This document shows, in pieces, positions 1 through 60,418 of a stretch of 64,000 bases of DNA. The DNA comes from an uncultured Serinicoccus sp. (lineage in GTDB: Bacteria > Actinomycetota > Actinomycetes > Actinomycetales > Dermatophilaceae), in NCBI RefSeq assembly GCF_947500995.1, contig NZ_CANMUA010000002.1, positions 1 through 64,000 of the forward strand, written 5' to 3'. Each line of letters starts with the position of its first letter. The stretch's first letter is position 1. Both the position numbers and the translations under genes were made by a program. The notes under the pieces are model-generated. The model was not told the origin of the DNA. It saw nothing but the letters and a program-made list of their open reading frames with translations, and made no database searches.

Positions 1-217
1 GAAGCGCCGAACGACGGAGCGTGACGCCTCCCATTCCGGGCGCCTGACCTGCGGGGCGTCGCCTGCTTCGGGCCAGCCATAAGGACTGGTTCCGATAGGG
101 CTGTCCACCAGTAGTACGCGACGGGGGGTCCCCGAGAGGCCACCCCTCCCCGGGCCGTGACCGGTCCTGGGTACGTGGCCACCGGCGCCCGGAGACAGGG
201 CGGAAGTTGATGCTGTG

Positions 218-251: not shown

Positions 252-3200
252 ATGACGATTCACAAGCTGACCGCGGGGTCGGGGTATGACTACCTGACCC
301 GGCAGGTCGCTCGTCAGGACGCGACCGAGGCCGGCCGGTCCGGGCTGGCGTCCTACTACACCGAGAAGGGCGAGGCGCCCGGGGTGTGGGTGGGGTCCGG
401 GCTGGGCGGGATCGAGGGCCTGGAGGCCGGGGACGTGGTCACCGCAGAGCAGATGACCCGCCTGTTCTCGACCGGTGAGCACCCCCTGGGGGACGCGGCT
501 GGGGACCTGGGCCGGCCGTACAAGGTGTACGGCGGCCGCGACGACGTCGGCACCTTCCGGATCGAGGTCGCCCGTCGGTGCGAGTCCCACAACGTGGCCC
601 TCGGGCTGCCGCGGGAGGCGCCGGTGGACATCGAGACCCGGGCCCGGATCCGCACCGAGGTGGGGCGGGAGATGTTCCGGCAGGAGTACGGGCGCGACCC
701 GTTGAACGACCGTGAGCTGGCTGGTCTGATCGCCCGGGCGTCCCGTCCACGGACCACCGCGGTCGCGGGGTACGACCTGACGTTCTCCCCGGTCAAGTCG
801 TTCTCGACATTGTGGGCGCTGTCCGACCCGGCCACCGCCGCACGACTGGAGCGGGCACACCAGGACGCCGTCGGGGAGGCGGTCCGGTTCCTGGAGTCCC
901 ATGCCTTGTTCACCCGTACCGGCAAGGACGGGGTGCAGCAGGTCGACGTCCGCGGCATGGTCGCGACCGCGTTCACCCACCGTGACTCCCGCGCCGGTGA
1001 CCCCGACCTGCACACCCACGTCGCCGTGGCCAACAAGGTCCAGACCACCGATGGCCGGTGGCTCTCGATCGACGGGCGTGTCCTGTTCAAGGCCACCGTC
1101 ACCGCCTCGGAGACCTACAACACGGCGCTGGAGAAGAACCTGGAGGCTCTCGGGCTGGCGTTGCAGCGGCGTGACCCGGCTCCGGGGGAGGACGTCCGGA
1201 AGCGCCCGGTGCGGGAGATCGTCGGGGTGGACCCGGCGTTGAACCGGGCGTGGTCCTCACGTCGTGCCTCGATCCAGGCGCGCCGCACCGAGCTGGCGCA
1301 ACAGTTCCAGGCCGACCACGGGCGGCCGCCGAACCCGGTGGAGTCGATCCAGCTGGCGCAGCAGGCGACCCTGGAGACGCGGGAGGCCAAGCACGCGCCC
1401 CGGTCCCTGGCGCAGCAACGGGCCGCGTGGCGGGCCGAGGCGGTCACGGTCCTGGGCGGTGAGGACAAGGTCACGGCCATGTTGCGGGCGGCCCAGCGGG
1501 GTGGTCAGCAGGTCAAGGACGCACCGGTGGCGGTCACTGACCAGTGGCGCCAGCAGACCGTGCAGCGGATGCTGGCCACGGTCCAGGGGGCCAGGTCGAC
1601 GTGGCAGGTGTGGCATCTGCGGGCCGAGGCCCAGCGGCGGGTGCGGGGCACCGCCACCCCCGCCGGCGGCGTGGACACCCTGGTCGAGGAGCTCACCCGT
1701 CAGGCGTTGACGGCGTCGGTTCCGATGCGCGGGGGCCGCGCTGACACCCTGGACGAACCGTCCGTGCTGCGGCGGGCCGACGGGACCAGCGTGTACCAGG
1801 TCGCCGGTTCCGAGCTGTTTACCTCCCGGGCGGTCCTGGACGCCGAGGCCCGGCTGGTGCAGGCGGCGGGACGCACCGATGGCCGGGTCGCGGACGCTGG
1901 CGCGGTGGATCTGGCGTTGGTCGAGTCGCTCGCCAACGGGGTCGAGCTCAACCCGGGTCAGGCGACGTTGGTGCGCTCGATGGCCACCTCCGGTGCACGG
2001 TTGCAGCTGGCGATCGCCCCCGCGGGGTCGGGGAAGACGACCGCGATGCGGGCACTGACCCAGGCGTGGGAGGCCTCCGGCGGGTCCGTGGTCGGGCTCG
2101 CACCGTCGGCCGCGGCCGCCGCCCAGCTGCACCAGCAGGCCGGCGCGACGACCGACACCCTGGCGTCCCTGGTGTGGCGCCTGGGCCACGATCCAGACTC
2201 GGTGCAGGACCTGGCCTGGGCCGCGGGGATCGGCCCGGCCAGTCTCGTCATCATCGACGAGGCCGGGATGGCCGACACCCTGTCCCTGGACACGGCGGTG
2301 TCGTGGCTGACCGCCCGGGGTGCGTCGGTGCGGCTGATCGGAGACGACCAGCAGCTCGCTGCGATCGGCGCCGGCGGGGTGCTGCGCGACATCCGCGCGA
2401 CCCACGGGGCGTTGCACCTGAGCGAGCTGATGCGGTTCACCGACCCGGCCGAGGGCGCCGCGTCCCTGGCGCTGCGGGAAGGGAACACCGAGGCTTTGGG
2501 GTTCTACCTGGACCGGTCCCGGGTCCACGTGGGAGACCTGGGCACCATCACCGAGGACGTGTTCGAGTCATGGCGGGCCGACCGCGGCAACGGGTTGGAC
2601 TCGATCATGCTCGCGCCCACCCGTGAACTGGTCTCCGAGCTGAACCGACGCGCCCGCGCCTACCGGCTCGAGGGCACTGACCAGACCGGGCGCGAGGTGC
2701 ACCTGGCCGACGGCAACCTCGCCTCGATCGGGGACGTCGTGCTGACCCGGTCCAACGACCGCCGGCTGCGCCTGTCGCCGACGGACTGGGTCAAGAACGG
2801 GGACCGGTGGACCGTCCTGGACGTTCACCGCGACGGCCGGATCCGCGCCGAGCACCTGGGCAGCGGCCGGCACATCACGCTCCCGGCCGACTACATCACC
2901 GAGTCCACCGAGCTGGGGTACGCCTCCACCGTCCACACCGCCCAGGGCGTCTCCGTCGACACCACCCACGGGGTCGCCACCGGGCAGGAGTCCCGCCAGC
3001 AGCTCTACACCATGCTGACCCGGGGACGGCAGGCCAACCATGTCTACCTCGAGGTCGTTGGCGACGGTGACCCGCACACCCGGATCGCGCCGGGCACGGT
3101 GCACCCCCGCACCGCGACCGACGTCCTGGAGGCCGTGCTGGCCCGCGACGACTCCCCGGTCTCGGCGTCGACGACGTCGCGGCACACCGACGACCCGGGA

Positions 3201-5993
3201 CCGCTGCTGGGGCAGGCCACCGCGCGCTACGTCGATGCCCTCTACACCGCGGCCGCGGACCTGGCCGGGCCAGAACGGTTGGCCACCCTGGACCAGGTCG
3301 CCGACCAGCTGGTGCCCGACCTGACCGGTTCCCCGGCGTGGCCCACGCTGCGGGCCCACCTGATGCTGATCGCCGCGCACGGCCACTCCCCCACCCAGGC
3401 CCTGCACCGGGCAGTGTCCGGACGCGAGGTCGACACCGCAGCCGACCCCGCGGCCGTTCTCGGGTGGCGCCTGGACGACACCGGGCTGCGCAACGCCGGC
3501 CCGGGCCCCCTGCCCTGGGTGCCCGGCATCCCCGCAGCACTGGCCGGACACCCGACCTGGGGCCTCTACCTGACCGCGCGGGCAGCGCGGGTCACCGACC
3601 TCGCCGGCGACGTCGCCGAGACCGCCACGACCGGCCCGACGCCCGCGTGGGCCAAACAGGGGCACGCCGCCCCCACGGCCGAGGTCCTCGGCAAGGTCGC
3701 CGTCTGGAGGGCTGCGACCGGCGTCGACGACACGGACCCACGTCCGACCGGGCCGCGGCAGACCGACACCGCACCCGCCACCTACCAACGGCAGCTGCGC
3801 GCCGAACTCGCCCACGGTGAGGCACCCGCGATCGCCGAATGGGCACCGCTGCTGACCTCGATCTCCCCCGCGGTGACCGCCGACCCGTTCGCGCCGGTCC
3901 TGGCCGAGCGGCTCGCCGCGATCTCCCGGGCCGGCCTGGACGCCGCAACCCTCACCCGGGACTCGGCCGCCACCGGGCCGCTCCCGGACGACCACGCTGC
4001 CTCCGCGCTCTGGTGGCGGATCCAGGGGCACCTGTCCCCGGCCGTCGCCGCGCACACCGCCGGCGACACCACCGTCACCACCGGCTGGAGCACCACGCTG
4101 CTGGACCACGTCAACGACCCCGAACGGGCCGCCGCCCTGCAGGGATCACCGTGGTGGCCGACCTTGGTCACCACCATCGACCACGCTTTGCACCGCGGCT
4201 GGAGCCTGGACGCCCTCGTCGAGACCCTGCCGGCGGCCGGGACCGACGTCGACGACGCGCAGGCGATGGTCTGGAAGATCAGCGTGCTGGCCGACCCTCC
4301 CCCGGCCGACGACACCCGCCACGAGCCTGAGGACGCCGCCCCCGAGGACGCAGCCTGGGCGACCCAGCACGAACCCGACCCCATCTCGATCCAACCCACC
4401 GACGCCGAGTGGGCCGCCTCCCTGGTCGGCCACACCCCGGACCTGGACGACGGGCCCGGCAACGACCTGGAGCCCGCGCCCACCGCCGCGGAGGTCGAGC
4501 ACGCGCTGGAGCTCGCCGCGCGCATCCGGCGCCTCGGGCCCGACGTGCCGGAGTACACCGAGGCTCAGCTGGACCGCGACTACGCCCGCCACCAAGAGCG
4601 CCAGGACTCCCCCGTCCCGGTCCAGCGGCTCGCGGACATCAACCAGCTGGCCCTGGACTACTACCAGTCCCACCTGGCCCACGGGTGGGCCCAGAACTAC
4701 CTGGCCGGGCGGTTCGGGCAGGACCTGACCGGTCACCCCCAGATCCAGCCCGGGTTCGCCCCGCCCGGGTGGACCCACCTGGTCGACCACCTCCGCTCCC
4801 GTGGCGTCACCGACCTCGAGCTCGAGACCGCGGGGGTCGCGACCCGCACCCGCGACGGGCGACTCATCGACCGGTTCCGCGACCGGGTCGTGCTCCCGAT
4901 CGTCCACGACGGCCAGGTTCTCGGGTTCGTCGGACGCCGCAACCCGCACCGGGACGACGACCAGGCCGCCGGCCCGAAGTACCTGAACACCCCGAACACG
5001 CCCCTGTTCCACAAGGGTGACCAGCTCTACGGCACCGACCCGACCCTGCTCGCCTCTGGCGCGACCCCCGTGCTCGTCGAGGGCCCGATGGACGCCGCCG
5101 CGATCACCCTTGCCACCGGCGGCCACTACGTAGGGGTCTCCACCCTCGGCACCGCGCTCACCGACGCCCAAGCCACCCAGCTCGCCGGCACGAGCGGTCC
5201 GGTCATCGTCGCCCGCGACAGCGACGTCGCCGGGCAGGTCGCCACCGAGCGTGACCACTGGCTCCTGGCCCAGCAAGGCACCCACACCTTCCACGCCGCC
5301 CTGCCGGCCGGGACCGACCCCGCCAGCCTGCTCACCGACCACGGCACCGACGCTGTCCACGACGCCCTCATCACCGCCCGCCCCCTGGCCACGGTCCTGC
5401 TCGAGGAGCGGCTGACCCACCTGCCCCCCGATCAGGCCCTGTCGGCGACCCTCACCGTCCTGGCCTCGGCCGACCCCGCCACCTGGGCGTCCGGTGTCGA
5501 CCGGGTCGCGCAGGTCACCGGCGCCGACACCCACCAGGTGCGCCGCGAGCTGCTCGCCGCGGTCCGCGCCTGGGAGGACGACGCCGCCGGCGTGGCCGCC
5601 GCGCGGCTCGCCGGCAGTGCCGACGTGCGGGCCCACCTCGACGCCGCCCAACAGGTCGAACCGGCAACCCGGTGGGCGGCCGCAGCCCAGGACATCGACC
5701 CCCGCCTCCCCCACGAGCCCGACTGGGCGGCTCTCGCGCGCGTCATGCAACACCTGCACGACCACGGGCACGACCCTGTTGCCCTGGCCCGCGCCACCAC
5801 CGCCGAACAGCCCCTCGCCACAGTCAACCCCGCGCAGGACCTGCGCTACCGACTCGTCGTCATCGGCCCACCCATGCCCCGCCCCAACATCACCACCCCC
5901 AGCAGCGATGCGGCCAACGAGCGGATGCGCCGCGCGACCCGTGACACACCCCGAACCAGCGACCGCTTTGACCGCGGAAGCCCCAGTCGATGA
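252..5993 (+). CDS. MobF-family conjugative relaxase / RecD-like helicase / DnaG-like primase fusion
   Basis: This protein should nick one strand at oriT, bind it covalently through an N-terminal tyrosine, unwind it 5'-3' and perhaps prime complementary synthesis. The N-terminus SGYDYLTRQVA carries the MobF tyrosine region, and HTHVAVANK near residue 255 is the metal-binding histidine motif of TrwC/TraI. A helicase follows, with Walker A APAGSGKTT near 590 and Walker B DEAGM near 667. After a long Ala/Pro-rich linker, residues about 1450-1700 resemble the DnaG catalytic core: GPKYLNTP and LFHKG near 1575, then the TOPRIM signature VEGPMDA near 1611. At 1,913 residues it is longer than plain TrwC (about 970) or F TraI (about 1,750). 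I chose ATG 252 over GTG 246 because AGGGG sits 7 nt upstream. It lies 12 kb from the transfer operon, separated by insertion sequences. Confidence 0.93.
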   Translation: MTIHKLTAGSGYDYLTRQVARQDATEAGRSGLASYYTEKGEAPGVWVGSGLGGIEGLEAGDVVTAEQMTRLFSTGEHPLGDAAGDLGRPYKVYGGRDDVGTFRIEVARRCESHNVALGLPREAPVDIETRARIRTEVGREMFRQEYGRDPLNDRELAGLIARASRPRTTAVAGYDLTFSPVKSFSTLWALSDPATAARLERAHQDAVGEAVRFLESHALFTRTGKDGVQQVDVRGMVATAFTHRDSRAGDPDLHTHVAVANKVQTTDGRWLSIDGRVLFKATVTASETYNTALEKNLEALGLALQRRDPAPGEDVRKRPVREIVGVDPALNRAWSSRRASIQARRTELAQQFQADHGRPPNPVESIQLAQQATLETREAKHAPRSLAQQRAAWRAEAVTVLGGEDKVTAMLRAAQRGGQQVKDAPVAVTDQWRQQTVQRMLATVQGARSTWQVWHLRAEAQRRVRGTATPAGGVDTLVEELTRQALTASVPMRGGRADTLDEPSVLRRADGTSVYQVAGSELFTSRAVLDAEARLVQAAGRTDGRVADAGAVDLALVESLANGVELNPGQATLVRSMATSGARLQLAIAPAGSGKTTAMRALTQAWEASGGSVVGLAPSAAAAAQLHQQAGATTDTLASLVWRLGHDPDSVQDLAWAAGIGPASLVIIDEAGMADTLSLDTAVSWLTARGASVRLIGDDQQLAAIGAGGVLRDIRATHGALHLSELMRFTDPAEGAASLALREGNTEALGFYLDRSRVHVGDLGTITEDVFESWRADRGNGLDSIMLAPTRELVSELNRRARAYRLEGTDQTGREVHLADGNLASIGDVVLTRSNDRRLRLSPTDWVKNGDRWTVLDVHRDGRIRAEHLGSGRHITLPADYITESTELGYASTVHTAQGVSVDTTHGVATGQESRQQLYTMLTRGRQANHVYLEVVGDGDPHTRIAPGTVHPRTATDVLEAVLARDDSPVSASTTSRHTDDPGPLLGQATARYVDALYTAAADLAGPERLATLDQVADQLVPDLTGSPAWPTLRAHLMLIAAHGHSPTQALHRAVSGREVDTAADPAAVLGWRLDDTGLRNAGPGPLPWVPGIPAALAGHPTWGLYLTARAARVTDLAGDVAETATTGPTPAWAKQGHAAPTAEVLGKVAVWRAATGVDDTDPRPTGPRQTDTAPATYQRQLRAELAHGEAPAIAEWAPLLTSISPAVTADPFAPVLAERLAAISRAGLDAATLTRDSAATGPLPDDHAASALWWRIQGHLSPAVAAHTAGDTTVTTGWSTTLLDHVNDPERAAALQGSPWWPTLVTTIDHALHRGWSLDALVETLPAAGTDVDDAQAMVWKISVLADPPPADDTRHEPEDAAPEDAAWATQHEPDPISIQPTDAEWAASLVGHTPDLDDGPGNDLEPAPTAAEVEHALELAARIRRLGPDVPEYTEAQLDRDYARHQERQDSPVPVQRLADINQLALDYYQSHLAHGWAQNYLAGRFGQDLTGHPQIQPGFAPPGWTHLVDHLRSRGVTDLELETAGVATRTRDGRLIDRFRDRVVLPIVHDGQVLGFVGRRNPHRDDDQAAGPKYLNTPNTPLFHKGDQLYGTDPTLLASGATPVLVEGPMDAAAITLATGGHYVGVSTLGTALTDAQATQLAGTSGPVIVARDSDVAGQVATERDHWLLAQQGTHTFHAALPAGTDPASLLTDHGTDAVHDALITARPLATVLLEERLTHLPPDQALSATLTVLASADPATWASGVDRVAQVTGADTHQVRRELLAAVRAWEDDAAGVAAARLAGSADVRAHLDAAQQVEPATRWAAAAQDIDPRLPHEPDWAALARVMQHLHDHGHDPVALARATTAEQPLATVNPAQDLRYRLVVIGPPMPRPNITTPSSDAANERMRRATRDTPRTSDRFDRGSPSR

Positions 5994-6553: not shown

Positions 6554-7972
6554 GGCTCTTCGCATTTGAGCGGGGCGGGGCTGTTCATGCTGCTGACCTG
6601 TGCCCTCGGGTGAGGGTGATGTGGGCCAGTATGCGTCGTCGGTAGTTGGTCATGTTGCGGTACCCGCAGCCGACTCTCTTGGTGTCCTTGATGATCCGGT
6701 TGAAGCCCTCGGTGCGGGCGTTGGTGACGTTCTCGGTGAGCGCGGTGAGGATGGCCGGCCACCAGGTCTGGACCGTGGTGGCCAGACGGGTGGTCTCGGC
6801 CATGTGGGAGTCGGCCGCGGCGTTGTAGAAGTCGAATAGCCGGGCCCGGATGAGGGGCGGGTCGCTGGCGTCCAGGAGCAGCCTGAGGCGTTCCTTGACG
6901 GCGTGCGCGGCGCCAATCTCGTTGGTGGTGTCCTCGGCCGCCAAGGTGGTCTGCAGGCGCACGACCTGCTTGGTCGAGAGGTGCTCGTACCCGGTGAGCA
7001 GCAGCTGCCGGTGGGCCCAGGTCGCCTCGGCGGTGGTGCCTCGCCGGCCCAGTCGTTCCCGGGTAACGCGTTGGCGGACCTCGGTGACCATCTGGTTGGC
7101 CAGTGCCACCAGGTGCCACTTGTCGACCGCGACCCGCGCGTGCGGTAGCGCGGCCCGCACACCGGAGGCGTACGGCGCCGAAGGGTCGATGACGACCAGC
7201 TCGATGCCGCCGCGGAACGCCTGGGACTGCTCACCGAGCCAGTCGACGACGCAGGCCCCCGACCTGCCCGGGACCAGGCCCAGCAACGCGCCCGGGGCGC
7301 TGGTGTCGGCGTTGACGAAGGAGGTCATCCACGGGTTGGACCTTCTCCACCCGGCCTCTTCCAGGACCCACCGCACGGACCTGGCGCGGGTCTCATCGAT
7401 GCCCAGCACCCGGGTCGGCTCCGGTTCGGGGAACCATGCGGTCGCCGCGGCGATGAGCGCCTGGTGCGCGGTGTGCCAGGACACGCCGTGCTCGGCGGCG
7501 ACGTCGGACACCGCCCGGTTCGACCGGGCGATCGCTGCAGCGAGCTCGGCGCGCAACCGGGCGCTCAGCCTGGCTCGGGCCGGGATCTGGGTGGACTGCT
7601 GGGTGAACGTCGCCCGCTGGCACCCAGTCTGCTGACAGACCAGGCGCCGCTTGCGCCACCACAGATCCAGGATCTGACCGCTGACCTTCAGATCCTTCAC
7701 CGCCACGATCGGACGGTCCTTGACCCTGCTCGTCAGGACCCCGCACCCCGGGCAGGCACCCTCGCTCGCCCTGACCTCGATGAGCGCCTTCACCCGCCCC
7801 GGGTCGATCCGCTCGATCAGCAGGACGGTGAACTCGTCCTCCAGACCCAGAAGTACTGCCGTACCGTCGTCCATGCTCGTGGCCTCGTCGCTGTCGGTGG
7901 TGAGAGACCAACAGCATGTCGGGGCCACGAGCCCGATCACCTACCGGGCGCCCCGCTCAACTACGAAGAACC
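6554..7972 (-). mobile_element. intact ISL3-family insertion sequence, 1,419 bp, with 8-bp target duplication
   Basis: The ends GGCTCTTCGCATTTGAGCGGGGC and, inverted, GGTTCTTCGTAGTTGAGCGGGGC are imperfect terminal repeats. The octamer CCTAATAC stands immediately outside both ends (6546-6553 and 7973-7980), a perfect 8-bp target duplication as expected for ISL3 transposition. One uninterrupted transposase fills the element. It inserted into an older IS3-family element, which gives a relative date for the two events. Confidence 0.93.
6585..7874 (-). CDS. ISL3-family transposase
   Basis: This is a DDE transposase that mobilises the element containing it. It has an N-terminal zinc-finger-like module (CPGC, followed by a second Cys pair region near CQQTGCQ), a helix-turn-helix, and the catalytic region with VLGIDET and VVIDPSAPYA. 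The C-terminal TEGFNRIIKDTKRVGCGYRN is the usual ISL3 tail. I chose the ATG at 7874 (MDDGTAVLLG) because GAGG lies 8 nt upstream; the ORF track extends to 7940. At about 429 residues it has the usual family length, with no frameshift, so it may still be active. Confidence 0.93.
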   Translation of the reverse strand: MDDGTAVLLGLEDEFTVLLIERIDPGRVKALIEVRASEGACPGCGVLTSRVKDRPIVAVKDLKVSGQILDLWWRKRRLVCQQTGCQRATFTQQSTQIPARARLSARLRAELAAAIARSNRAVSDVAAEHGVSWHTAHQALIAAATAWFPEPEPTRVLGIDETRARSVRWVLEEAGWRRSNPWMTSFVNADTSAPGALLGLVPGRSGACVVDWLGEQSQAFRGGIELVVIDPSAPYASGVRAALPHARVAVDKWHLVALANQMVTEVRQRVTRERLGRRGTTAEATWAHRQLLLTGYEHLSTKQVVRLQTTLAAEDTTNEIGAAHAVKERLRLLLDASDPPLIRARLFDFYNAAADSHMAETTRLATTVQTWWPAILTALTENVTNARTEGFNRIIKDTKRVGCGYRNMTNYRRRILAHITLTRGHRSAA

Positions 7973-12834: not shown

Positions 12835-13527
12835 TTAGTCCACTACCTCACCGGTGTGGGTGTCGATGGTGTGGCCGTCGATGAGGCGGAGACGTGGGAT
12901 GGGCCGGGTCCGGTCGTCTGCTAGGTCTGCTGGTGGTTCGGCTGCCGGGTGCGCCTGCCCGGTGCGGGTGTGGTCGAGGTCATGGCGGTAGAGCGCGCCC
13001 CGGGTGGCCTGGTGGGTGGTGTATCTGGCGTTGGCGGCGCGGGCTGGCCAGTCTCGGTGATGGTCCTCGCAGGCGCTGCGGGTGCGGCTGCGGACCCGGT
13101 CGAGAAAGGCGGGGAGAGCGTAGCGGTGCCAGTCTTCGAGGGCGTCGCTGGTGAACGCGGTACCGGCTTGGTGGCGTAGGTCGGCCAGGACGGCGATGTC
13201 GTGGACCAGGTGGGGGTGTTGGGGCCAGCAGGGCGGGATCATGTGGCTGGAGTCCCAGACGTGCTCGGTGTTGACCCACGCAGTGACCGCTTCGAGCCAG
13301 TCCCAGAGTTGGGCTCGTTGTTGGGGGTGGGTGACGGTGGCGGGGTCCCAGGGCCGGGCCAGCGCGTTGAGGTCGCCGAGTTCTTTGCGTTGCTTCTCGG
13401 TGCCGTGGGCGGCGATCTCGAGCTCACGGTAGGCGTTGGCCAGGGCGGGTCCGGGCTTGGGGAAGGGCAGGGCCAACGGCACGGGTGGCCGGCCTGGGGT
13501 GGAGTGGCCGTTCCTGGCGGTGGTCAC
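12835..13527 (-). CDS. hypothetical protein, last gene of the transfer operon
   Basis: The protein has about 230 residues and is soluble. The central part is Trp- and His-rich (LWDWLEAVTAWVNTEHVWD, then PPCWPQHPHLVHDIAVLADLRHQA, LEDWHRYALPAFLDRV), reminiscent of the actinobacterial DUF4913-type proteins often found in conjugative operons; I offer that only as a resemblance. Translation starts at GTG 13527, within GTGA, overlapping the stop of the VirD4-like gene and preceded by GTGGAGGAACC. The ORF track extends the frame to 14958, but that part is a shadow of the coupling-protein gene. Confidence 0.72.
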   Translation of the reverse strand: MTTARNGHSTPGRPPVPLALPFPKPGPALANAYRELEIAAHGTEKQRKELGDLNALARPWDPATVTHPQQRAQLWDWLEAVTAWVNTEHVWDSSHMIPPCWPQHPHLVHDIAVLADLRHQAGTAFTSDALEDWHRYALPAFLDRVRSRTRSACEDHHRDWPARAANARYTTHQATRGALYRHDLDHTRTGQAHPAAEPPADLADDRTRPIPRLRLIDGHTIDTHTGEVVD

Positions 13528-14987
13528 CGGTTCCTCCACTGGGTGTGGTCGTGATCGACGACGCCGGCGAGGGCGGTGGTGACGCGGCTGTTCGGGGTCG
13601 ACGCGAGGGTGGTGGCGGCGGTGGCGTGGGTGTGGGTGGTGAGACGGTCCCGTAGGTGGGCCTGGTCGGCGAGGAGCTGTTTGCCGTGCTTGCCGTCGAT
13701 GGCTCGGTGAAGCCGGGCGAGGATGGGTTTGCCGTTCTCGGAGATGACCAGGGCGTGCCGGTCTTTGATGCGGCGGACCTCGGAGCCGGTGAGGACGGGG
13801 ATGTCTTCGGCGGAGTAGCTGCGGCCGCCGCGGTGGCCGGTGTTCCAGGTGGACCGGCCGACCCGGACCTTGCCGAGGAGGTCGGACATCTCCTGGTTGA
13901 AGGCGACGTCTTTGGACCCGCCGAACAGGACGAGGTTGTTGGTGAGGCCGAGGACGGCGCGGGCTTCCTGTTGGCCGAAGATGGCGTCGAGCTGGGCTCG
14001 GGTTTGCGCGGCCCAGATGAAAGACAGACCGAGGGCGCGTTCGTTGGCCATCCGGGTGCGCAGGGTGGGCAGGGGTGCGGTGGAGGGCAGCTCGTCGAGG
14101 CAGGCCAGCATGGGTGGGCACAGCTTGCCGTGGGGGGAGTTCTGCGCCAGCGACAGTGCGGTGTCCAGGACGTGTTCGGCGATCGCGGTCATGAGGGGGG
14201 ATGCGGAGGCGTAGGGGTCTTCGCGGCCGAGGAGGTACAGGGTTCCGCCGGTGTTGATGACGTCGGCGAGGTCGGTGGCGGGGCGGCCGGGGCCGGGGAC
14301 GCACCGGCGGCGCATGGATTCCTGGAAGAACAGGGACATGGATTGCTGGACGGTGGTGATGGTGTTCCCTGCGGTGCGGTCGTCTCCGTTGAGGGCACCG
14401 TGCAGCAGCCCGTGCCAGAACGGTGCCGCCCCGGGGTGCTCGCGCAGGGTCTCGGCGGGGGTGATGGCGTTGCGGGGGTTGGCGACCCATTCCAGGACGT
14501 CGTCGAGGGTGGCGCCTTCGAGGGCGGCGGCGTGGAAGTAGGCCTGGATGACCTTGGCGGCTTCGGCGGCGTAGAACCGGGCGGCCTGGTCGCCGTAGCC
14601 CTCGGCGACGGCCCCTTTCACGGTGCCAGCGGTGAAGGCTTTGGCGCGGCGTTCGGCCACCAGCGGGTCGCCGCAGCCGGCGATCGGGTCCCAGACCAGC
14701 TCGGGCAGGCCGGGGGTGAGCCCGAAGGGGTCGAGCACCAGGGCGGGCCGGTCCCCGGCTGCTCTCGCGGTGAAGGTGAGCAGCAGGTCCTCGGGCTTGG
14801 TGAGGGTGACCAGGGCGGCACCGGGCGCGTCGAGGAGGGCTGGGGTGAGCAGGTCGAGCGTCTTGCCCGAACCTTGAGGCCCGATGACGCCGGCGGTGCG
14901 GTCCCAGGGCACCCACAGGTCGACACCGCGGGGTGCGGTGGAGCGGCCGAGCTGCCACCCAAGCTGGGTGGGGTCGAGACGGGTCAT
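13524..14987 (-). CDS. VirD4/TraD-like conjugative coupling ATPase (soluble part)
   Basis: This is the type IV coupling ATPase expected to dock the relaxase-DNA complex to the secretion channel. Walker A IGPQGSGKTLD lies near residue 35, Walker B ACLDELPS near 293, and the TraG/VirD4 signatures LGLSFIWAAQTRAQLDAIFG and VLGLTNNLVLFGG follow. It has 487 residues and no membrane segments. Most VirD4 proteins carry two N-terminal helices, and here those appear to be encoded by the preceding gene. The start ATG 14987 overlaps the upstream stop (ATGA) and has GGAAGG before it; the longer ORF to 15818 is a shadow. The GTG of the next gene overlaps its stop. Confidence 0.92.
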   Translation of the reverse strand: MTRLDPTQLGWQLGRSTAPRGVDLWVPWDRTAGVIGPQGSGKTLDLLTPALLDAPGAALVTLTKPEDLLLTFTARAAGDRPALVLDPFGLTPGLPELVWDPIAGCGDPLVAERRAKAFTAGTVKGAVAEGYGDQAARFYAAEAAKVIQAYFHAAALEGATLDDVLEWVANPRNAITPAETLREHPGAAPFWHGLLHGALNGDDRTAGNTITTVQQSMSLFFQESMRRRCVPGPGRPATDLADVINTGGTLYLLGREDPYASASPLMTAIAEHVLDTALSLAQNSPHGKLCPPMLACLDELPSTAPLPTLRTRMANERALGLSFIWAAQTRAQLDAIFGQQEARAVLGLTNNLVLFGGSKDVAFNQEMSDLLGKVRVGRSTWNTGHRGGRSYSAEDIPVLTGSEVRRIKDRHALVISENGKPILARLHRAIDGKHGKQLLADQAHLRDRLTTHTHATAATTLASTPNSRVTTALAGVVDHDHTQWRNR

Positions 14988-15442
14988 CGGGTCGCCTTCC
15001 TGCGGCGGTAGAGGTCGGGTCGGATCACGGCACGGTGTTGGCGTAGGCGGGCCAGTCCGAGGAGTTGGCGGGCCTCGGTGGCGTTGGCCATGCCCTTGAG
15101 CGCGCCCGGGCCCCACCGGGTCCAGCCGTACCCGCCTGCGGCGGCCACCAGGATCAGGACCACGATCTCGGTGGCGACGACCCATGCCCACAGGGCACCG
15201 GTGGTGGCCACGGCCAGGGGTGGGTCGGCCAGCCCGGCGGAGGCGTCCCCGGCGAGGAGCCCAGGGACGGAGGAGAACAGCCGTGTGGTGGGGGGCCAGG
15301 TGGGGCCGGCGCCGGCGACCGTGTTGGCGGCGGCTCGGCCGGCGTGGGCACCGAGGACCAGGATGAGCAGGACCGCGAAGCAGATCCCGAGCGGGATCTC
15401 CCAGGTGTAGGGGTAGGGGTTGGTGCGGCGGTCGCGTTGCAT
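14984..15442 (-). CDS. membrane protein, probable detached membrane domain of the coupling protein
   Basis: The 152-residue protein has two membrane segments (about 14-38, PLGICFAVLLILVLGAHAG, and about 84-105, ALWAWVVATEIVVLILVAAAGGY) separated by an extracytoplasmic loop. It ends with a basic cytoplasmic tail (RHRAVIRPDLYRRRKATR-type). That topology equals the N-terminal transmembrane domain of VirD4. It ends in ATGA shared with the start of the coupling ATPase gene, so the two should be made together and probably form one complex. Confidence 0.75.
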   Translation of the reverse strand: MQRDRRTNPYPYTWEIPLGICFAVLLILVLGAHAGRAAANTVAGAGPTWPPTTRLFSSVPGLLAGDASAGLADPPLAVATTGALWAWVVATEIVVLILVAAAGGYGWTRWGPGALKGMANATEARQLLGLARLRQHRAVIRPDLYRRRKATR

Positions 15443-15478
15443 CGGTGCGTCCTTCGTCGTGACGTGCTGTGCTGCGGG

Positions 15479-17038
15479 TCAGGGGGTGGCGGGGTCGTCG
15501 GCGACGTCGCCGAGCCGCCAGATCTGGAAGATGTTGCGGGTCAGGTCGTCGGCGTAGCTGAAGGCGCCCACGCCGAGGGAGGGGTTCGCGGCCTCGAACG
15601 TGCTCTGGGACGCGGGGTCGAGGACGAAACCGACGTGGCCGATGGTGTTCGGCCCGAGGTAGGAGTCGAAGAAGAACAGGTCTCCGGGTTGGGCCTGGTC
15701 GACGGGGACCTGGTAGCCGTTGCCGGCGGCGAGCCAGTCGCGTTGTGCCTGGGCGGTGCGGGGTGAGGTGATCCCGACGCGGGCCATCGCTTGTTGGGTG
15801 AGGCTGGAGCAGTCCCACGCGTCCGGGCCGGTGGCGCCGAGGACGTAGGCGTCACCCTGCTGGTCCAGCGCGAACTCGAGCATGGTGGCGACTCGCTCGT
15901 CGCTGATGGGGGGCAGGTCCGGGTCGCCGGTGCCGCCGGGGCAGTCGGCGGGCTCGGCGAGCACCAGACCACCGCCGTAGGCGTGGGCGTAGTGCAGGAC
16001 GTCGTTGACGTACCAGTCGGCCCGGTTGTACCCGAAGAGGGCCTCGCGGACCCCGTCCGGACCGTCCGCGGCGCCGAGCGCCCGCAGGTAGTTCGCGGCC
16101 GAGTGGACCGAGTCCGCATCGTTGGTGATCTGCGCCGCCCCGTCGCCGTCGCCGTCGACGCCGTAGGTCGCGAAGGTGGCGGGCATGAACTGCATGAGCC
16201 CCTGGGCGCCGGCGGTGCTGGTGGCGGTGGTGGACCCGTGCGCGGTCTCGGCCATGCCGATGCCGGCCAGCAGGGTCCACGGCAGGTTGTACTCGGCGGC
16301 GGCGGCCTCGTACAGGTCCTGCACCCGGGCGGGCACTGGCTGGGCCGGGTTGGTCAGGGACGCCTGGCGTGGCTCACCGGCCTGGGGCAGCGCGAACCCG
16401 ATGCCCCCTTCACCGCCGCCGGGCAGGTCGGGTGCCTGGTCGTCGGGGATGGAGGGTCCGACCGGTGTGCCGGACAGCATCACGCCGCGGTCGGCGAGGA
16501 AGGCGACGGGGTCGACGGGTTTCCCGTCGAGCCGGACCTCCAGGTGCAGGTGCAGCCCGGTGGAGCGCCCGGTGGTGCCCTCCACCCCGAGGACCTGCCC
16601 GATCGCGACCTGGTCGCCGACGGTGACGGCGGGGTCGATGCTGTCCAGGTGGGCGTACCGGGTCAGGACCCCGCTGGCGTGCTGGACGTCGACGGTGGTG
16701 CCGTATCCCCCGTTCGGTCCGGCGTCGACCACGAGCCCGGCGGCGGCAGCCACGATCGGCGCACCGGAGGGCACCGACCCCAGGTCGAGACCGGTGTGCT
16801 CCCCGGGCAATCCGGTCTCGGGGTCGATGCGAGGACCGAACCCGGAACGGTGCTCGTAGGTGGTGTCGACGTAGGGGACGCGCCAGTCGCCGGTGGCGGG
16901 GATGGTCCCGGCGCAGCTGGTCACCCGGTGCTGCTCGGCCAGGGCGGGTGTGGCGATCACGGTGACCACGACGGCCAAACCCAGCGGCACCCCGGCCAGG
17001 ACCAGCAGGACCGCGAGGAGGCCGATGGCGCGTTTCAT
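15479..17038 (-). CDS. three-domain murein hydrolase: M23 peptidase, lytic transglycosylase, NlpC/P60
   Basis: This 519-residue exported protein should open the peptidoglycan for the conjugation channel, the role of VirB1 in other systems. An N-terminal anchor or signal (LLAVLLVLAGVPLGLAVVVTVIA) is followed by an M23/LytM domain (HTGLDLG near 79, HLHLEV near 162). Next is a soluble lytic transglycosylase domain (catalytic Glu in GIGMAETAHG near 259, GLMQFMPATF) and then an NlpC/P60 domain (Cys in WDCSSL near 405, His in GHVGFV near 464). All three catalytic sets appear intact. ATG 17038 overlaps the VirB4 stop (ATGA). The reading frame upstream of 17038 in the ORF track is a shadow. Confidence 0.93.
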   Translation of the reverse strand: MKRAIGLLAVLLVLAGVPLGLAVVVTVIATPALAEQHRVTSCAGTIPATGDWRVPYVDTTYEHRSGFGPRIDPETGLPGEHTGLDLGSVPSGAPIVAAAAGLVVDAGPNGGYGTTVDVQHASGVLTRYAHLDSIDPAVTVGDQVAIGQVLGVEGTTGRSTGLHLHLEVRLDGKPVDPVAFLADRGVMLSGTPVGPSIPDDQAPDLPGGGEGGIGFALPQAGEPRQASLTNPAQPVPARVQDLYEAAAAEYNLPWTLLAGIGMAETAHGSTTATSTAGAQGLMQFMPATFATYGVDGDGDGAAQITNDADSVHSAANYLRALGAADGPDGVREALFGYNRADWYVNDVLHYAHAYGGGLVLAEPADCPGGTGDPDLPPISDERVATMLEFALDQQGDAYVLGATGPDAWDCSSLTQQAMARVGITSPRTAQAQRDWLAAGNGYQVPVDQAQPGDLFFFDSYLGPNTIGHVGFVLDPASQSTFEAANPSLGVGAFSYADDLTRNIFQIWRLGDVADDPATP

Positions 17039-18591
17039 GCGGCGGCCTCGATGCCCTCGTTGGTGTAGGTCAGGTCGAGCTCTGGGCGGGTCAGAACGGT
17101 CTGCACCTTGTAGGAGCGGTCCCCGACCTGCCACAGGGCGCGTCCTTTGCCTTGCAGCGCCCACCCGGTGACGACGTCCCGGGCCAACGGTCCGAGCCCG
17201 AGCAGGTGGTCCAGCTCGTGGCCGACCTGGTGCGGTTGGCCGTGCAGGATCTTGATGTCGGCCAGGTGCAGCAGGTCCTTGGCGATGGTCGCGGCCTGGG
17301 ACCCCTGGTCGCCGGCGGACAGCAGGTCCGACGGTTTGTGCATGACGCAGTACTGGACGTCCCCTCCGAGGCCGCCGACACCGCGGGACAGCCTCAGGTC
17401 GGCATCGAAGGACTTGACCGCTTCCGGGCCGAGCCGCAGCTGCATCCAGGCCTCGTCCCGCACCACGACCCGCAGGTCGCCGGTCCGAGCGACCTCTCGG
17501 ATCCCTCGACCCCAGGAGTTCAGGCAGGTCAGGGCTATGCCGGTGGCTTCCTCTCCCAAGGGCCGCAGCCGGGACAGGGACAGCGACTGGATCGGCGCGT
17601 CCCAGTTGATCGTGATGTTCGTGTGCTCGTCGAACAGTCCGGCCAGTGCCCCGTTGACCAGCTGTCCGAGGGCGTCGCGCAGCAGCCGGGTGGCGTCCAG
17701 GAAGTGGCGGACGTCGGCGTACCGGCACTCGGCCACTAGCGTGTCTGCGGGATTGTCCAGGGCGGCCCACAGTGCGGGGATGGTCGTCTCGGTCAACCTG
17801 GTCGCTCCCCGGGAGTACCCGGTCAGGTCAGCCAGTGCCGCCTTGATGACGGCCTCGTCGCTGGGCCCGAACGGGACCCGGGCCTCACCGATGCGTTGGG
17901 ACCCGACCAGGCCACGCACCAGGGTCAGCCACCGCCCGAAGACGACCTGGGCGCGGGCCTGGGCGGCAGGACCGTCCAGGTTCTCCCACCCGGTCGCCAG
18001 CGGCCCGATCGCCAGCGGGTTGACCCGTGCCGGCAGGCCCGGCCCCAAGGAGATCGGTGCCACACCCAGGAACCGGCACAGGGCCTCGTACTCGTCCTTG
18101 GTGTCGCCGAGGATGAGCGCCTTGTAGTCGAAGTCCATCATCCGCAGCAGGAACGCCTTGGTGTTCGCTGACTTGCCCAGGCCGGGTTTGCCCCACGCCA
18201 TGATGTTGGGGTTGGTCACCGGGATCGCCTCGTTGAGAACCCACCCCAGGGGGTCGCAGTAGAACGCGGACCCGGACAGCATGTCGATCCCCATCTGGGC
18301 GCCGGTCGGCGGCAGGCCAGGGGTCGCGATGAACGGCCACAGGGCGGGGGCCTGGTCGCTGGTCATCCGCCATGCCGCGACCGGCGCGGCCGCGGGCACC
18401 CACCCTGCCTCGCGGCGACGCAGCCCGCGCCAGGAGCTGGGACGGAAGATGCGGGGTTCCTTCGCCGTGACGGCGGCGGCCGGGATGCTGGGGATCTCGT
18501 GCCCGAAGTCCCCCAGCAGCCGGGACACGTCCCGTCCTGTGGTGGCGCGCCGGGGGCGTTCGGTCCTGGTGGTGGCCATCGGCGGGTTCAC
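17035..18591 (-). CDS. VirB4-like conjugation ATPase
   Basis: This is the cytoplasmic ATPase that powers assembly and substrate transfer in the type IV secretion machine. Walker A GKPGLGKSANTK is near residue 130 and Walker B VVVRDEAWM near 374. The flanking ALILGDTKDEYEAL and SRGVGGLGGDVQYCVMHKPSDLL are typical of the actinobacterial VirB4/TraC group. The product is about 518 residues, shorter than classical VirB4 (about 790), because the N-terminal portion seems to be supplied by the SCO6880-like neighbour. GTG 18591 overlaps the upstream TGA (GTGA) with AGGAG just before it; ATG 18579 is the alternative start. Confidence 0.9.
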   Translation of the reverse strand: MNPPMATTRTERPRRATTGRDVSRLLGDFGHEIPSIPAAAVTAKEPRIFRPSSWRGLRRREAGWVPAAAPVAAWRMTSDQAPALWPFIATPGLPPTGAQMGIDMLSGSAFYCDPLGWVLNEAIPVTNPNIMAWGKPGLGKSANTKAFLLRMMDFDYKALILGDTKDEYEALCRFLGVAPISLGPGLPARVNPLAIGPLATGWENLDGPAAQARAQVVFGRWLTLVRGLVGSQRIGEARVPFGPSDEAVIKAALADLTGYSRGATRLTETTIPALWAALDNPADTLVAECRYADVRHFLDATRLLRDALGQLVNGALAGLFDEHTNITINWDAPIQSLSLSRLRPLGEEATGIALTCLNSWGRGIREVARTGDLRVVVRDEAWMQLRLGPEAVKSFDADLRLSRGVGGLGGDVQYCVMHKPSDLLSAGDQGSQAATIAKDLLHLADIKILHGQPHQVGHELDHLLGLGPLARDVVTGWALQGKGRALWQVGDRSYKVQTVLTRPELDLTYTNEGIEAAA

Positions 18592-20090
18592 CCGCTCCTG
18601 CGGGTCAGGGACACCCCGAGGGGCACCACGGTCGCGGCGAAAGACACATCCTGGGCCAGGTCCAGGCGCATGGGGGCGAACCCGCAGCGGCGGATCGCGG
18701 CGTCGAGGCGGCGCCCTGCCTCGGCGGCGCTGACGGTCTTGGGGACGGTGACGGTGGCGACCGCGTACGGTTCGGTGAGGGAGTTGCCGCGGGCCAGTTT
18801 GGACTCGATCCGACGCACCTTGTCGACCTCGTCGCGGGAGCGGGTGCTGACCTTGCGCCGAGCCCGTGCGTTCAGCTCCTCCCCCAGGTCGGCGGCGAAC
18901 TCGCTGTTGGTCGAGCGGCGGGCGGCCTGACCGGCGGGCACGATCGGGTAGCAGACCATGAGCGCTCGACGCTCCCCGTCCTGCTGGGTGGACAGGATCG
19001 GCGCCAGCGCCCCGATCGCGGCGCCCTTCACGGGGAGCTTGAGAGTGGAGCTGACCGAGTTCCACGCGTCGTGGCTGTAGTGCCGGGGTGCCGGGTCGGC
19101 GCCGGAGGGCCCGGCCATCGACCACGGCACCTCGGTGTTGACCTGGTCGCCGGCGGCGTGCGCGGCGAGGGCCTCGACGAGGCTGGCGCGGTCGCCGGGC
19201 GCGAACCCGGTCCGGCAGGCGGTCGCCAGCTCGGCGCTGGTCAACCACTCCACCGAGGAGGCCCCGACCGCGGCCCGCAGGTGGGACTCGGTCTCGGCGG
19301 CGACGGCGTGCAGCGCTCGGGCTCGGCCGCTGACGCCGCCGCCGTACTCCTTGGCGACCTTGCTCAGCCGGGACTCGGGCACGACGATGGTGACGAACGA
19401 CTCGGTGCGCACCGACGCCGCGGTCAGGGTCGCGGCCAGGGTGTCGTTGATGACGCGGGCGGCCGCGGGGGCGCCCGGCTGGCGGTGGCGGGCCATCCAG
19501 TCTGCTCGTTCGGCTCCGTCCTCGGGGACGGTCCGCACCTGCAGGATCACTTCGCTGACCAGTTCGGTCTTGACCTGCACGTCCAGCAGCTGGCTGAGGC
19601 CGCGGCCGTACCCGTCGCGTTCGGAGGCCTCGGCCAGGCCGAGCCCGGGGTGCACCACGGCGGCGGTCAGCGCCCAGGTGCGGGCGGCGTGGTTCTGCAC
19701 CAACGCCACCCGGCGGTAGGTCGGCCCGTAGGGGGGACCCTCGTGGACCTCGATGCTGGTCAGGACCCCGGGCAGGTCGGCCTGGGCCGGGTCCCTCACG
19801 GCGCCGCGGGTGGCGCGGGCACGGAACCGGGTCCATCCCATCAGCCCCCCGGCCGCGGTCGCGAGGGTCGCGGCCAACCAACCGGTGACCGACCGGCCCC
19901 GCACCGGGACGGCGACGACCACTGCGAGCAGTGCCCACAGCACCAAGAACAACCCTGCCGAGGCCCACGCCGACCTGGAGACCGCGACCGCGACCGGCAA
20001 CACCGCCACGGTGAGCGTGCCCAGCTGCCACCCGGACAGCCCGAAGAACCACCCGATGCGGGCCCGGGAGTAGTCACCGTAGATCGTCAT
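18588..20090 (-). CDS. SCO6880-family conjugation protein (VirB3 / VirB4 N-terminal-like)
   Basis: The 500-residue protein begins GDYSRARIGWFFGLSGWQ and has two membrane helices (about 20-45 and 48-62, with another weak segment near 70-85), then a large cytoplasmic region without a Walker motif. This architecture is the actinobacterial SCO6880 family, always found beside VirB4-type ATPases and thought to combine the VirB3 inner-membrane part with the non-catalytic N-terminus of VirB4. It is separated by 48 bp from the VirB6-like gene and overlaps the VirB4 gene. Confidence 0.85.
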   Translation of the reverse strand: MTIYGDYSRARIGWFFGLSGWQLGTLTVAVLPVAVAVSRSAWASAGLFLVLWALLAVVVAVPVRGRSVTGWLAATLATAAGGLMGWTRFRARATRGAVRDPAQADLPGVLTSIEVHEGPPYGPTYRRVALVQNHAARTWALTAAVVHPGLGLAEASERDGYGRGLSQLLDVQVKTELVSEVILQVRTVPEDGAERADWMARHRQPGAPAAARVINDTLAATLTAASVRTESFVTIVVPESRLSKVAKEYGGGVSGRARALHAVAAETESHLRAAVGASSVEWLTSAELATACRTGFAPGDRASLVEALAAHAAGDQVNTEVPWSMAGPSGADPAPRHYSHDAWNSVSSTLKLPVKGAAIGALAPILSTQQDGERRALMVCYPIVPAGQAARRSTNSEFAADLGEELNARARRKVSTRSRDEVDKVRRIESKLARGNSLTEPYAVATVTVPKTVSAAEAGRRLDAAIRRCGFAPMRLDLAQDVSFAATVVPLGVSLTRRSG

Positions 20091-20138: not shown

Positions 20139-21701
20139 TCACGCCGGTGGCACCGCCGCGGCCGCACCGGAACCGGCTGCGCCACCGGCCCCAGGGCCGG
20201 TGCCCGCGGGTGATGCTCCCGCCGGGGTAGTGCCGGACCCGGCACCGGTGGGCGCGGCCGCCGGCGGTGCTGGCAGGGGCGCGGCCGGGGCCGGTGCGGT
20301 CGGCGTGGTGGGCGCTGTGGGTGCGGTGGGCGCCGGGTCAGGTCCGGGCGCGGTGCGTGGGCTGCCGGTGTCCCCGGTGCCGGGGGGCGATGCGGGTCCC
20401 TGCGGGCCGGTCTCGGGGGCGTTGTCGCCACCGTCCTGGTCCTCGCCGCGCTGTTCGGGGTGCCGGTTCCGGTTCCGGTCTGCGCCCCGAGAGCCGGCGA
20501 AGTCGGGGACGTAGGTGTTGGAGCCGACGCCCATCTGGTTGGTCAGGTCCGCGCCGATGGTGGCGCCACGGGTGCCGGCCGCAGTCATCGCGCTGAGCCC
20601 GAGCGCGGCGACACCCCCGACCGCGGCCGCAGCGGGTCCGAGTGCGGCACCGGCGGAGCTCAGGCCGGACCCCAGTCCCTTGGAGGCACGTGCGCTGGCG
20701 TCACCGTCGGTGGAGCGTTCGGCCTGGGACCGCCCGTGCTCGTCGGTGCTGGAGGCGGCGGTCGAGGTCGACTTCTCCGAGGACCCGGACAGCACCCCTT
20801 GCAGTCCACCCTGCGCGGCGAGCCCGGCGCGCATCGCCGCGCCAGAGCTGGTGCCCGGGTCGACGAACGCGAGCAGCTTGAACAGCACCAACGGGGAGAA
20901 GCAGGCGATGCAGATGAGGAAGACGCCGGGGATGGCCGTGCCCAGGGTCTGCCCCAACCCGTCGGCTTCGTCCAGGACCACCCCGGAGGTCAACGAGACC
21001 CCGAGCCCCACCACCAGGGCCATCAGCACGGAGGTGAACGCGGCCGCGTGGAACCAGCGCACCGACTTCCAGAACCAGTCGTTGCCGCGGGCGACCAGGC
21101 CTGCCGCCGAGACCGGCGCTGTCGCGACCAGCACCAGCAGCGCGGCGGCACGGGCCAGCATCACCAGGAAGTGCCCGATCCCCCCCAGCCACAGAAACAG
21201 CCCCATGAAGCCCAGGACCGTGGCCAGCACCCCGTCGGTGAGGTCTTCGACCGACAGGGTGATCTCACCCAGGGGCTCCCAGGCGGACCACGCGGGGATC
21301 CCGAGCAGGCCCTGCAGCAGCGCCCCGGACAGCCCCGCGGTGGCGGTGATGACCAAGGCGGCGTAGGAGATCCACGCGAACCAGGCGAGCACGAACTGGC
21401 CCAGCCCGACGAGGACCTGCGCGAGGTCCTCGCCCCGGCGGCGGAACGCGACGATGCCCAGGCGCACGAACAGCATGGCCCCCAGCAGCGTCAGCGCGAT
21501 CCAGAAGGTGATGGCGTAGGCGTTGCCCAACGGCCCGCCCTCGGTGACGTCCGGGGTCATGACGTGGTCGACGATGCCGAGGACGAACTTGAGGAACCAC
21601 AGTCCCGCGGACCAGATCGCGAACATCACCGCGGTCCAGGCGTCGGCGACGAGCTTTCCGACGGCGGCCTGCCCGAGGAACTCGAACGGGTTGGGGATCA
21701 T
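20139..21701 (-). CDS. VirB6/TrbL-like polytopic conjugation channel protein
   Basis: This 520-residue inner-membrane protein should form part of the transfer channel. It has about seven membrane segments between residues 20 and 290 (for example LGFMGLFLWLGGIGHFLVML and AAALLVLVATAPVSAAGLV) and the conserved WFWKSVRWF-type motif between helices. The last 200 residues are a Ser/Ala/Gly/Pro-rich, probably disordered tail (PTAPTAPTTPTAPAPAAPLP), common in Gram-positive VirB6 homologues and probably cytoplasmic. It sits upstream of SCO6880-like and VirB4 in the operon. Confidence 0.87.
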   Translation of the reverse strand: MIPNPFEFLGQAAVGKLVADAWTAVMFAIWSAGLWFLKFVLGIVDHVMTPDVTEGGPLGNAYAITFWIALTLLGAMLFVRLGIVAFRRRGEDLAQVLVGLGQFVLAWFAWISYAALVITATAGLSGALLQGLLGIPAWSAWEPLGEITLSVEDLTDGVLATVLGFMGLFLWLGGIGHFLVMLARAAALLVLVATAPVSAAGLVARGNDWFWKSVRWFHAAAFTSVLMALVVGLGVSLTSGVVLDEADGLGQTLGTAIPGVFLICIACFSPLVLFKLLAFVDPGTSSGAAMRAGLAAQGGLQGVLSGSSEKSTSTAASSTDEHGRSQAERSTDGDASARASKGLGSGLSSAGAALGPAAAAVGGVAALGLSAMTAAGTRGATIGADLTNQMGVGSNTYVPDFAGSRGADRNRNRHPEQRGEDQDGGDNAPETGPQGPASPPGTGDTGSPRTAPGPDPAPTAPTAPTTPTAPAPAAPLPAPPAAAPTGAGSGTTPAGASPAGTGPGAGGAAGSGAAAAVPPA

Positions 21702-31036: not shown

Positions 31037-31890
31037 GACGCGGCCTGCCGTGCGTGAGTGCCGATGAACCTGGGCAGCGGCTTGCCGCGGGACATCACCC
31101 GCATCCAGACCAGGGTGGCGACGTAGGCGGCCAGCAGCACCAGCAGCAACGCCTGCCCGAAGGGTGTCCCGTACGGGGCGACGTAGTCCCCGGACAGGGC
31201 CAGGAACGCCAGGACCCCGACCGAGATCAGGGTGATCAGGCGCGCGTTGGACCGGGGCTTGGCCCGGTCGGCCTCGATCTCCCGGCGGGCCCGGACCTCC
31301 TGACCCACGGACTCGGCCAACGCGTCGAGGACCGCCGCGAGACCGGCCCCCCGGCGCCGGGCCCCGAGCCGCAGCTGGGCCACGATCAGGTCCCCGGTCG
31401 CGTCGTCGAGGTCGTCGGCCAGCAGGGTCAGCGCGGACTGGGTGTCCCACCGGGACCGCAACCGTCCGACCAGACGAGACACCTCGGGCCGGATCGGTTC
31501 AGGGGTGGAGCGCAGAGAGGTGATGAGTGCCTGCTCCAGGCCGACCCCGGCGGTCAGGACCCCGGCCACGGACCGCACCCACTCCTCCATCGCCTCCAAC
31601 CGCTTCACCTGTGCCTGCGCCGGGGGCGCCGCCAGCAGCAGCGGCAGCCCGGCCACCGCGGCCGGGACCAGCACCACAGCGACCAGGAACCCGGTCAGCG
31701 CCGCGATCAGAGCACCGGCCACGAACCCGGCGGCCAGGAGCACCAGGGTGCGGCGGGACAGGGTGATCGTGCGGGGGCGCGAGCGAGGCGGCCGTGGGGG
31801 CGGTGCCGGTCTGCGGGTCAGCCCCAGCGCGATGAGTAGCACCCCGCCGGCGACGAGGGCGCCGGCAAGGCCTGGAACCACCGGGGTCAT
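31033..31890 (-). CDS. tadB: TadB-like pilus platform protein
   Basis: This 285-residue T2SSF-family inner-membrane protein has N-terminal helices (GALVAGGVLLIALGL; VLLAAGFVAGALIAALTGFLVAVVLV), a cytoplasmic domain with WVRSVAGVLTAGVGLEQAL, and C-terminal helices (LITLISVGVLAFLALSG; ALLLVLLAAYVATLVWMRV). It lies between tadA and tadC with 4-bp overlaps on both sides. Confidence 0.9.
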   Translation of the reverse strand: MTPVVPGLAGALVAGGVLLIALGLTRRPAPPPRPPRSRPRTITLSRRTLVLLAAGFVAGALIAALTGFLVAVVLVPAAVAGLPLLLAAPPAQAQVKRLEAMEEWVRSVAGVLTAGVGLEQALITSLRSTPEPIRPEVSRLVGRLRSRWDTQSALTLLADDLDDATGDLIVAQLRLGARRRGAGLAAVLDALAESVGQEVRARREIEADRAKPRSNARLITLISVGVLAFLALSGDYVAPYGTPFGQALLLVLLAAYVATLVWMRVMSRGKPLPRFIGTHARQAAS

Positions 31891-60296: not shown

Positions 60297-60320
60297 CTGC
60301 GCGGTGGACCCGCGAGTGCG

Positions 60321-60391: not shown

Positions 60392-60418
60392 GTGAGGCAT
60401 CTGGTGGTGCTGCCTCAG

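Follow-up and report, generated by a model that had tools for sequence, protein, structure and literature searches.

The edge of a contig from an uncultured Serinicoccus genome, of which we analyzed a stretch of 64,000 nucleotides (hereafter, the window), raises the question of whether a single conjugation protein can nick, unwind and also prime the strand that it transfers. The first primer laid on the incoming strand in an unfamiliar recipient helps to set the host range of conjugation, and a primase tied to the relaxase would directly answer how this strand gets primed.

Domain architecture and the DnaG-type core

A stop-free ORF with an ATG start at window positions 252-5993 (plus strand) encodes a protein of 1,913 amino acids (aa), in which Pfam matches to TrwC, AAA_30, DNAG_N and Toprim_2 all exceed the curated cut-offs. 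From the N to the C terminus, it comprises a TrwC relaxase, an SF1/RecD-like helicase, three helical repeats of ~65 residues and a DnaG RNA-polymerase-domain core. An earlier note on this DNA had read relaxase, helicase and DnaG-type core in one protein, and this reading is borne out by Pfam profiles, invariant residues and predicted fold. The gene and its parts are as follows.

252-5993, plus strand: MobF relaxase-helicase-primase gene, 1,913 aa, with an alternative in-frame GTG start at 246 (Pfam/NCBIfam; 79 related loci)
273-1445, plus strand: TrwC/MobF relaxase domain, aa 8-398 (PF08751, E 1.4e-86)
1809-3053, plus strand: SF1 (TraI/RecD-like) helicase region, aa ~520-934 (PF13604; TraA_Ti model, 520-934)
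3285-3485, plus strand: ~65-aa helical repeat, copy 1, aa 1012-1078 (4e-23)
3837-4034, plus strand: helical repeat, copy 2, aa 1196-1261 (9e-23)
4119-4289, plus strand: helical repeat, copy 3, aa 1290-1346 (3e-12)
4614-5417, plus strand: DnaG RNA-polymerase-domain core without zinc-binding domain, aa 1455-1722 (PF08275 and Toprim_2; PDB sequence and fold matches)
5070-5327, plus strand: TOPRIM part of the core, aa 1607-1692 (E1610, D1614, D1656, D1658 and D1689 invariant where aligned, 84 homologues)
5670-5867, plus strand: helical repeat, copy 4, behind the primase core, aa 1807-1872 (8e-19)

The protein has the features of MobF membership, namely, the TrwC profile, a tandem tyrosine, the 3-His motif and a C-terminal SF1 helicase. 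It scored 291 bits with the TrwC profile (cut-off 25) and 244 bits with the MobF model NF041492 (cut-off 100). Residue conservation was read from an alignment of 85 proteins (~84 homologues), which retained the tandem Tyr35/Tyr36 in 84 rows, with one gap, and His243, His254 and His256 of motif III in 85/85. The AAA_30 helicase match (PF13604) covers aa 565-762 (E 5e-59), and Lys595 and Asp669-Glu670 of the Walker A and B motifs, as well as Arg924, are invariant where aligned.

The helical repeats, located with a profile built in the present analysis, had no Pfam or PDB match. Four copies were present in 50 of the 89 repeat-bearing proteins. Copies 1-3 occupy equivalent places in primase-less MobF proteins of Prescottella equi, Mycobacterium kubicae, Gordonia and Cryobacterium, so that they are part of the relaxase, with the primase lying behind them. 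The repeat is typical of this MobF branch; that it docks the protein to the secretion system is no more than a guess.

Within the C-terminal region, DNAG_N was matched at aa 1476-1596 (E 1.7e-24) and Toprim_2 at aa 1607-1692 (E 1.5e-10), so that the profile searches proposed in the earlier note found both TOPRIM and the DnaG core (PF08275) above cut-off. The motifs it had quoted are all present, GPKYLN at 1574-1579, LFHKG at 1585-1589 and VEGPMDA at 1609-1615. The NCBIfam dnaG model matched aa 1437-1722 (E 1.5e-41) with a score under its whole-protein cut-off, as expected because the other DnaG domains are missing. By sequence, the C terminus matched the DnaG cores of Pseudomonas aeruginosa, Bacillus subtilis, Escherichia coli, Mycobacterium tuberculosis and Staphylococcus aureus in the PDB. 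An AlphaFold2 model of residues 1401-1913, computed with an alignment of 55 relatives, reached a pLDDT of 91.3 and a pTM of 0.86, and Foldseek aligned ~320 residues of it with the RNA polymerase domain of DnaG (E-values from 1e-13 to 3e-17 across the first 20 matches). TM-scores, normalized to target length, rose to 0.82 for the solved cores of S. aureus (4edg) and M. tuberculosis (5w33). Judged by this model, the DnaG RNA-polymerase-domain core, consisting of DNAG_N and TOPRIM, is complete.

The same note had named a structure without a TOPRIM fold, or the loss of its Glu/Asp metal residues, as outcomes that would speak against it; both fold and residues were found. K1588, E1610, D1614, D1656, D1658 and D1689 never vary where aligned, apart from one ambiguous letter at D1689, and K1576 is conserved in 83 of 84 proteins, with one variant. 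Five of the six acidic positions of the TOPRIM metal site (Glu, D-x-D and a further Asp) are invariant. The sixth, which we take to be E. coli D347, is Ala in most of the aligned proteins and Cys or Asn in host actinobacterial DnaGs. The fused and mobile cores have EGP where DnaG has EGY. Across ten pairs of relatives, the primase core had dN/dS values of 0.06-0.51, mostly below 0.3 and near those of the helicase and linker. The primase region is under purifying selection.

The suspicion that the DnaG zinc-binding domain is missing proved correct. The whole protein has one cysteine, whole fused relatives have 0-9, and no zinc-binding domain was found in the window protein or in any fused homologue; across the whole genome, the sole match to the zinc ribbon PF01807 was the host DnaG on contig C9. 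A DnaB-binding domain had no Pfam match in the window protein. As a candidate for such a domain, the region behind the core (about aa 1708-1890) was rejected; modelled separately, it had no PDB match at E <= 0.001, and there is thus no sign of a DnaB-binding domain. Reading of the TOPRIM part, aa 1607-1692, did not reveal the DaN- motif, described as the common mark of the Toprim_2/3/4 mobile primases (PMC5512222). Lack of the zinc domain is the main doubt about priming. T7 primase without this domain makes random, template-independent dinucleotides (PMC6163395), and a zinc-less core could need another partner for template recognition.

Distribution and origin of the fusion

One scan of GTDB contigs detected 79 loci in other genomes whose relatives cover most of the protein; in almost every case, one ORF of about 1,790-2,370 aa encodes the relative. 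The single-ORF fusion is therefore genuine and not a product of chance. These loci belong mainly to Nocardioides, Ornithinimicrobium, Knoellia, Phycicoccus, Micropruina and Propionibacteriaceae, and the nearest relative, 97% identical, is from an uncultured Serinicoccus (L024). In the window's genome, contig C5 holds a gene for another fused protein (63% identical), and contig C1 one for a third MobF protein, which is without primase. The fusion is also found on complete plasmids, e.g., Nocardioides pNOCA01, and on a Pimelobacter plasmid. Of the 188 species in the window's own family, 59 have the primase module, as do 25 of 53 genera, and it usually lies in an ORF of ~1,850-2,250 aa; it was present in 13 of 297 genomes sampled from the order and, in a phylum sample of 297 genomes, only in the window's own. 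Two weaker matches in the phylum sample were ordinary DnaGs with a zinc motif. Judged from these scans, the fusion is widespread in some actinobacteria.

The module is absent from many related MobF proteins, among them the one encoded on contig C1 and those of Prescottella, Gordonia, Mycobacterium and Cryobacterium, so that the primase is not essential to MobF transfer generally. The long C termini of the MobF proteins from these four genera were searched for primase remnants with a profile of the fused core, and none were found. In some plasmid records, from Ornithinimicrobium INDO-MA30-4, Dermacoccus and Ruania, the fused gene is annotated in pieces (L131 3093-8756, L130 2899-8705, L119 4930-9460), the cause being decay or sequencing error.

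Where did the core come from? Capture of the host DnaG, tested by tree, received no support: mobile actinobacterial cores stand apart from host DnaG (100/98). The window core and bacterial DnaG have in common the complete RNA polymerase domain fold and the TOPRIM metal residues, whereas the former is without the zinc-binding domain, has no detected DnaB-binding domain, carries EGP instead of EGY and is placed apart in the tree. Thus, the fused core probably does not derive from host DnaG and belongs to a group of zinc-less mobile primases.

Free-standing members of this group lie near transfer genes. In Yimella, a separate zinc-less primase gene is situated amid conjugation genes, immediately before the coupling-protein gene; in Micromonospora, such a gene immediately follows the coupling-protein gene, and in Amycolatopsis, one is found near a MOBP relaxase. 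In two species of one genus, the separate primase gene overlaps or directly follows a MobP-like relaxase gene (L139 5072-8094, L140 5887-8726). In L140 the two genes share 4 nt, and genes for T4CP and VirB4-like proteins lie close by. The L139 and L140 primases showed a weak DnaB_bind match.

Two Nocardiopsis plasmids encode MobF proteins in which the relaxase comes first, the DnaG core second and the helicase last (L118 5967-12944, L125 3844-10599). Long branches part their relaxases from the window's group in the relaxase tree, and their cores group with the free-standing Micromonospora gene in the primase tree (98/83). By itself, the tree rejects a single origin of all fusions only weakly (AU p 0.034), and most of the conclusion comes from the difference in domain order and from the distance between the relaxases; taken together, these make independent fusion the better reading, and the fusion probably arose at least twice. 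The AU test gave p 0.055 for main-group membership of the L008 fusion, from a plasmid record named Variovorax, and p 0.21 for the Yimella gene as a later fission. In the main group, fused and primase-less states are intermingled on the relaxase tree, with at least three changes by a quick method, and hence more than one loss or gain of the primase may have occurred.

A probable role in conjugative transfer

Relaxases enter the recipient bound to the transferred strand, and a fused primase would therefore arrive there as well. We consider it fairly probable that the window protein is the relaxase of an actinobacterial conjugative element of the T4SS type, whose zinc-less DnaG-type primase primes the complement of the transferred strand in the recipient. 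The MobF domain would nick oriT and become tyrosine-linked to the 5' end of the transferred strand, which the helicase would unwind in the donor. The relaxase molecule would enter the recipient with the strand, bringing the primase already bound to its template, and primers laid on the incoming single strand would serve the recipient polymerase, so that the complementary strand could start without recruitment of DnaG to foreign DNA. Template positioning, the task of the zinc domain in DnaG, might come from tethering, from the relaxase or helicase, or from the zinc domain of host DnaG in trans. We infer that the core is catalytically active, that it is carried into the recipient and primes there, and that the element does not depend on recipient DnaG. 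In each of its forms, be it fused, gene-coupled or independently fused, the primase is tied to DNA transfer, and this is the strongest indirect evidence for a role in conjugation. Among known systems, an I1 plasmid transfers the SogL primase (PMC8406263), and transfer requires a primase linked to a MOBQ relaxase (PMC12857230).

Priming could also be of use to the donor. It is unlikely, to our judgment, that the primase acts mainly in the donor or resident cell, priming the displaced strand when the relaxase starts rolling-circle-like replication of the excised or plasmid-borne element, with recipient priming secondary. In the helicase mode of TraI, one relaxase molecule remains in the donor, which counts for such a role, as does the presence of fused proteins both on plasmids and on large, apparently chromosomal contigs. 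The authors of the Rickettsia study proposed donor or recipient priming for TraA_Ti (PMC4564193). However, DnaG and vegetative replication are already at hand in a donor, and linkage to a strand-crossing relaxase pays most in the recipient.

The absence of the zinc domain invites two further explanations, each of which we regard as improbable. The core might prime only with the zinc domain of host DnaG in trans, the element recruiting the host primase rather than replacing it. Host DnaG holds the only zinc ribbon of the genome, and trans crosstalk between primase subunits is on record (Corn et al. 2005, as cited in PMC6163395), yet the separation of mobile zinc-less primases from host DnaG in the tree (100/98) and conserved substitutions such as EGP for EGY suggest independent operation. 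Alternatively, a core that no longer primes could be kept as a structural or single-stranded-DNA-binding module for DNA handling or secretion-channel docking, as the missing zinc domain in every fused homologue, the alanine at the D347 position and the many MobF relatives without a core might suggest, but mere binding needs none of the other metal residues and the NTP/template lysines, essentially invariant in ~84 proteins, and the core is under purifying selection.

Priming of the transferred strand in the recipient, the reading that we prefer, can be set beside known relaxases and primases. F TraI and R388 TrwC likewise have an N-terminal TrwC HUH domain, the tandem tyrosine, the 3-His motif and a C-terminal SF1 helicase but no primase; the window protein adds the DnaG core and helical repeats behind the helicase. 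To our knowledge, the primase linked to MobA of RSF1010/R1162 is not of the DnaG type. This MOBQ relaxase resembles the window protein in being covalently joined to a transfer-required primase (PMC12857230) and differs from it in having no helicase; two transport signals are ascribed to the joined protein in work cited in PMC8406263. TraC1 of RP4 and SogL of ColIb-P9 and R64 are likewise Toprim-type conjugative primases, and they reach the recipient (PMC5512222, PMC8406263), but they are separate from the relaxase, whereas the window primase is fused. In TraA_Ti of Rickettsia bellii, relaxase and helicase are likewise followed by a C-terminal Toprim primase (PMC4564193); its relaxase is of the MobA/L type, a different lineage from TrwC/MobF. 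That architecture was called unique to rickettsiae (PMC4564193), and the fusion described here broadens this trait.

That relaxases can carry helicase or primase domains is textbook knowledge (PMC12857230, PMC3297438), and work on polyvalent proteins covers Toprim primases of conjugative elements (PMC5512222). Among the articles that it covered, a full-text search found no paper on a MOBF relaxase joined to DnaG. While relaxase-primase fusion itself is already known, what is new here is the union of MobF with a genuine DnaG core, widespread in some actinobacteria and with probable convergent fusion. Elements with fused, gene-coupled or absent primase constitute a natural experiment, and the zinc-less DnaG cores provide a test set for the need of the zinc domain in priming.

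It is tempting to go further, albeit tentatively and with less confidence than in recipient priming itself. A zinc-less mobile DnaG lineage, at first free-standing beside relaxase or coupling genes, might have been fused at least twice to MobF proteins at different chain positions. The resulting DNA-bound nickase-helicase-primase would enter the recipient and prime without host DnaG, tethering replacing the template recognition of the zinc domain. Such proteins would represent repeatedly assembled, self-contained transfer replisomes.

The surrounding element and the region upstream of the gene

Further transfer genes and other features of a mobile element are encoded in the window.

13524-15818, minus strand: T4SS coupling protein (TraG/TraD-like; PF12696, PF10412, PF02534, NCBIfam), N terminus of the ORF probably over-extended
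15479-17770, minus strand: cell-wall hydrolase of the transfer system (M23, SLT, NlpC/P60)
18588-20090, minus strand: SCO6880-family conjugation protein (NF042935, E 5.5e-119)
20139-21701, minus strand: SCO6881-like membrane protein of the transfer system (NF047967, E 1.8e-5, a weak match below cut-off)
31887-33542: type II/IV secretion ATPase
38957-44845: type I restriction-modification set, with genes to 46390 including an adjacent IS3-type transposase

The element is either an integrated element or a large plasmid. A tRNA Val-Cys-Gly cluster at 60222-60491 marks a possible end of an integrated element, and an ISL3 transposase is encoded at 6585-7940. A protein of ~1,016 aa encoded at 46890-49940 had no Pfam match; in another genome, a neighbour of a fused MobF gene begins in much the same way (L142 6903-9953).

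In 62 of 82 relatives, the sequence ACACCTNNNGCA lies in the 200 bp that precede the gene, compared with 0.0013 occurrences expected per locus, an expectation taken from the same loci elsewhere. It is usually located 60-170 bp before the start (e.g., L009 and L021) and also precedes the primase-less MobF gene on C1; it is a candidate oriT/nic.

In the window, the relaxase gene starts 251 bp into its 482-kb contig, and, owing to an insert that reaches 113 bp into the contig, ACACCTNNNGCA cannot be seen there. These 113 bp, common to the starts of C2 and C5, had been considered as oriT and were rejected, since L024 and L019 show them to be the end of the insert. Upstream of the relaxase gene, the insert, probably a transposon, comprises ~5.26 kb with 98.8% identity (L024 78-5336, L019 2630-7884, window 1-113), and it was found with the window element, its C5 paralogue and an Ornithinimicrobium. 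Its genes apparently include those for metal-resistance-like membrane transporters and an ArsR-type regulator.
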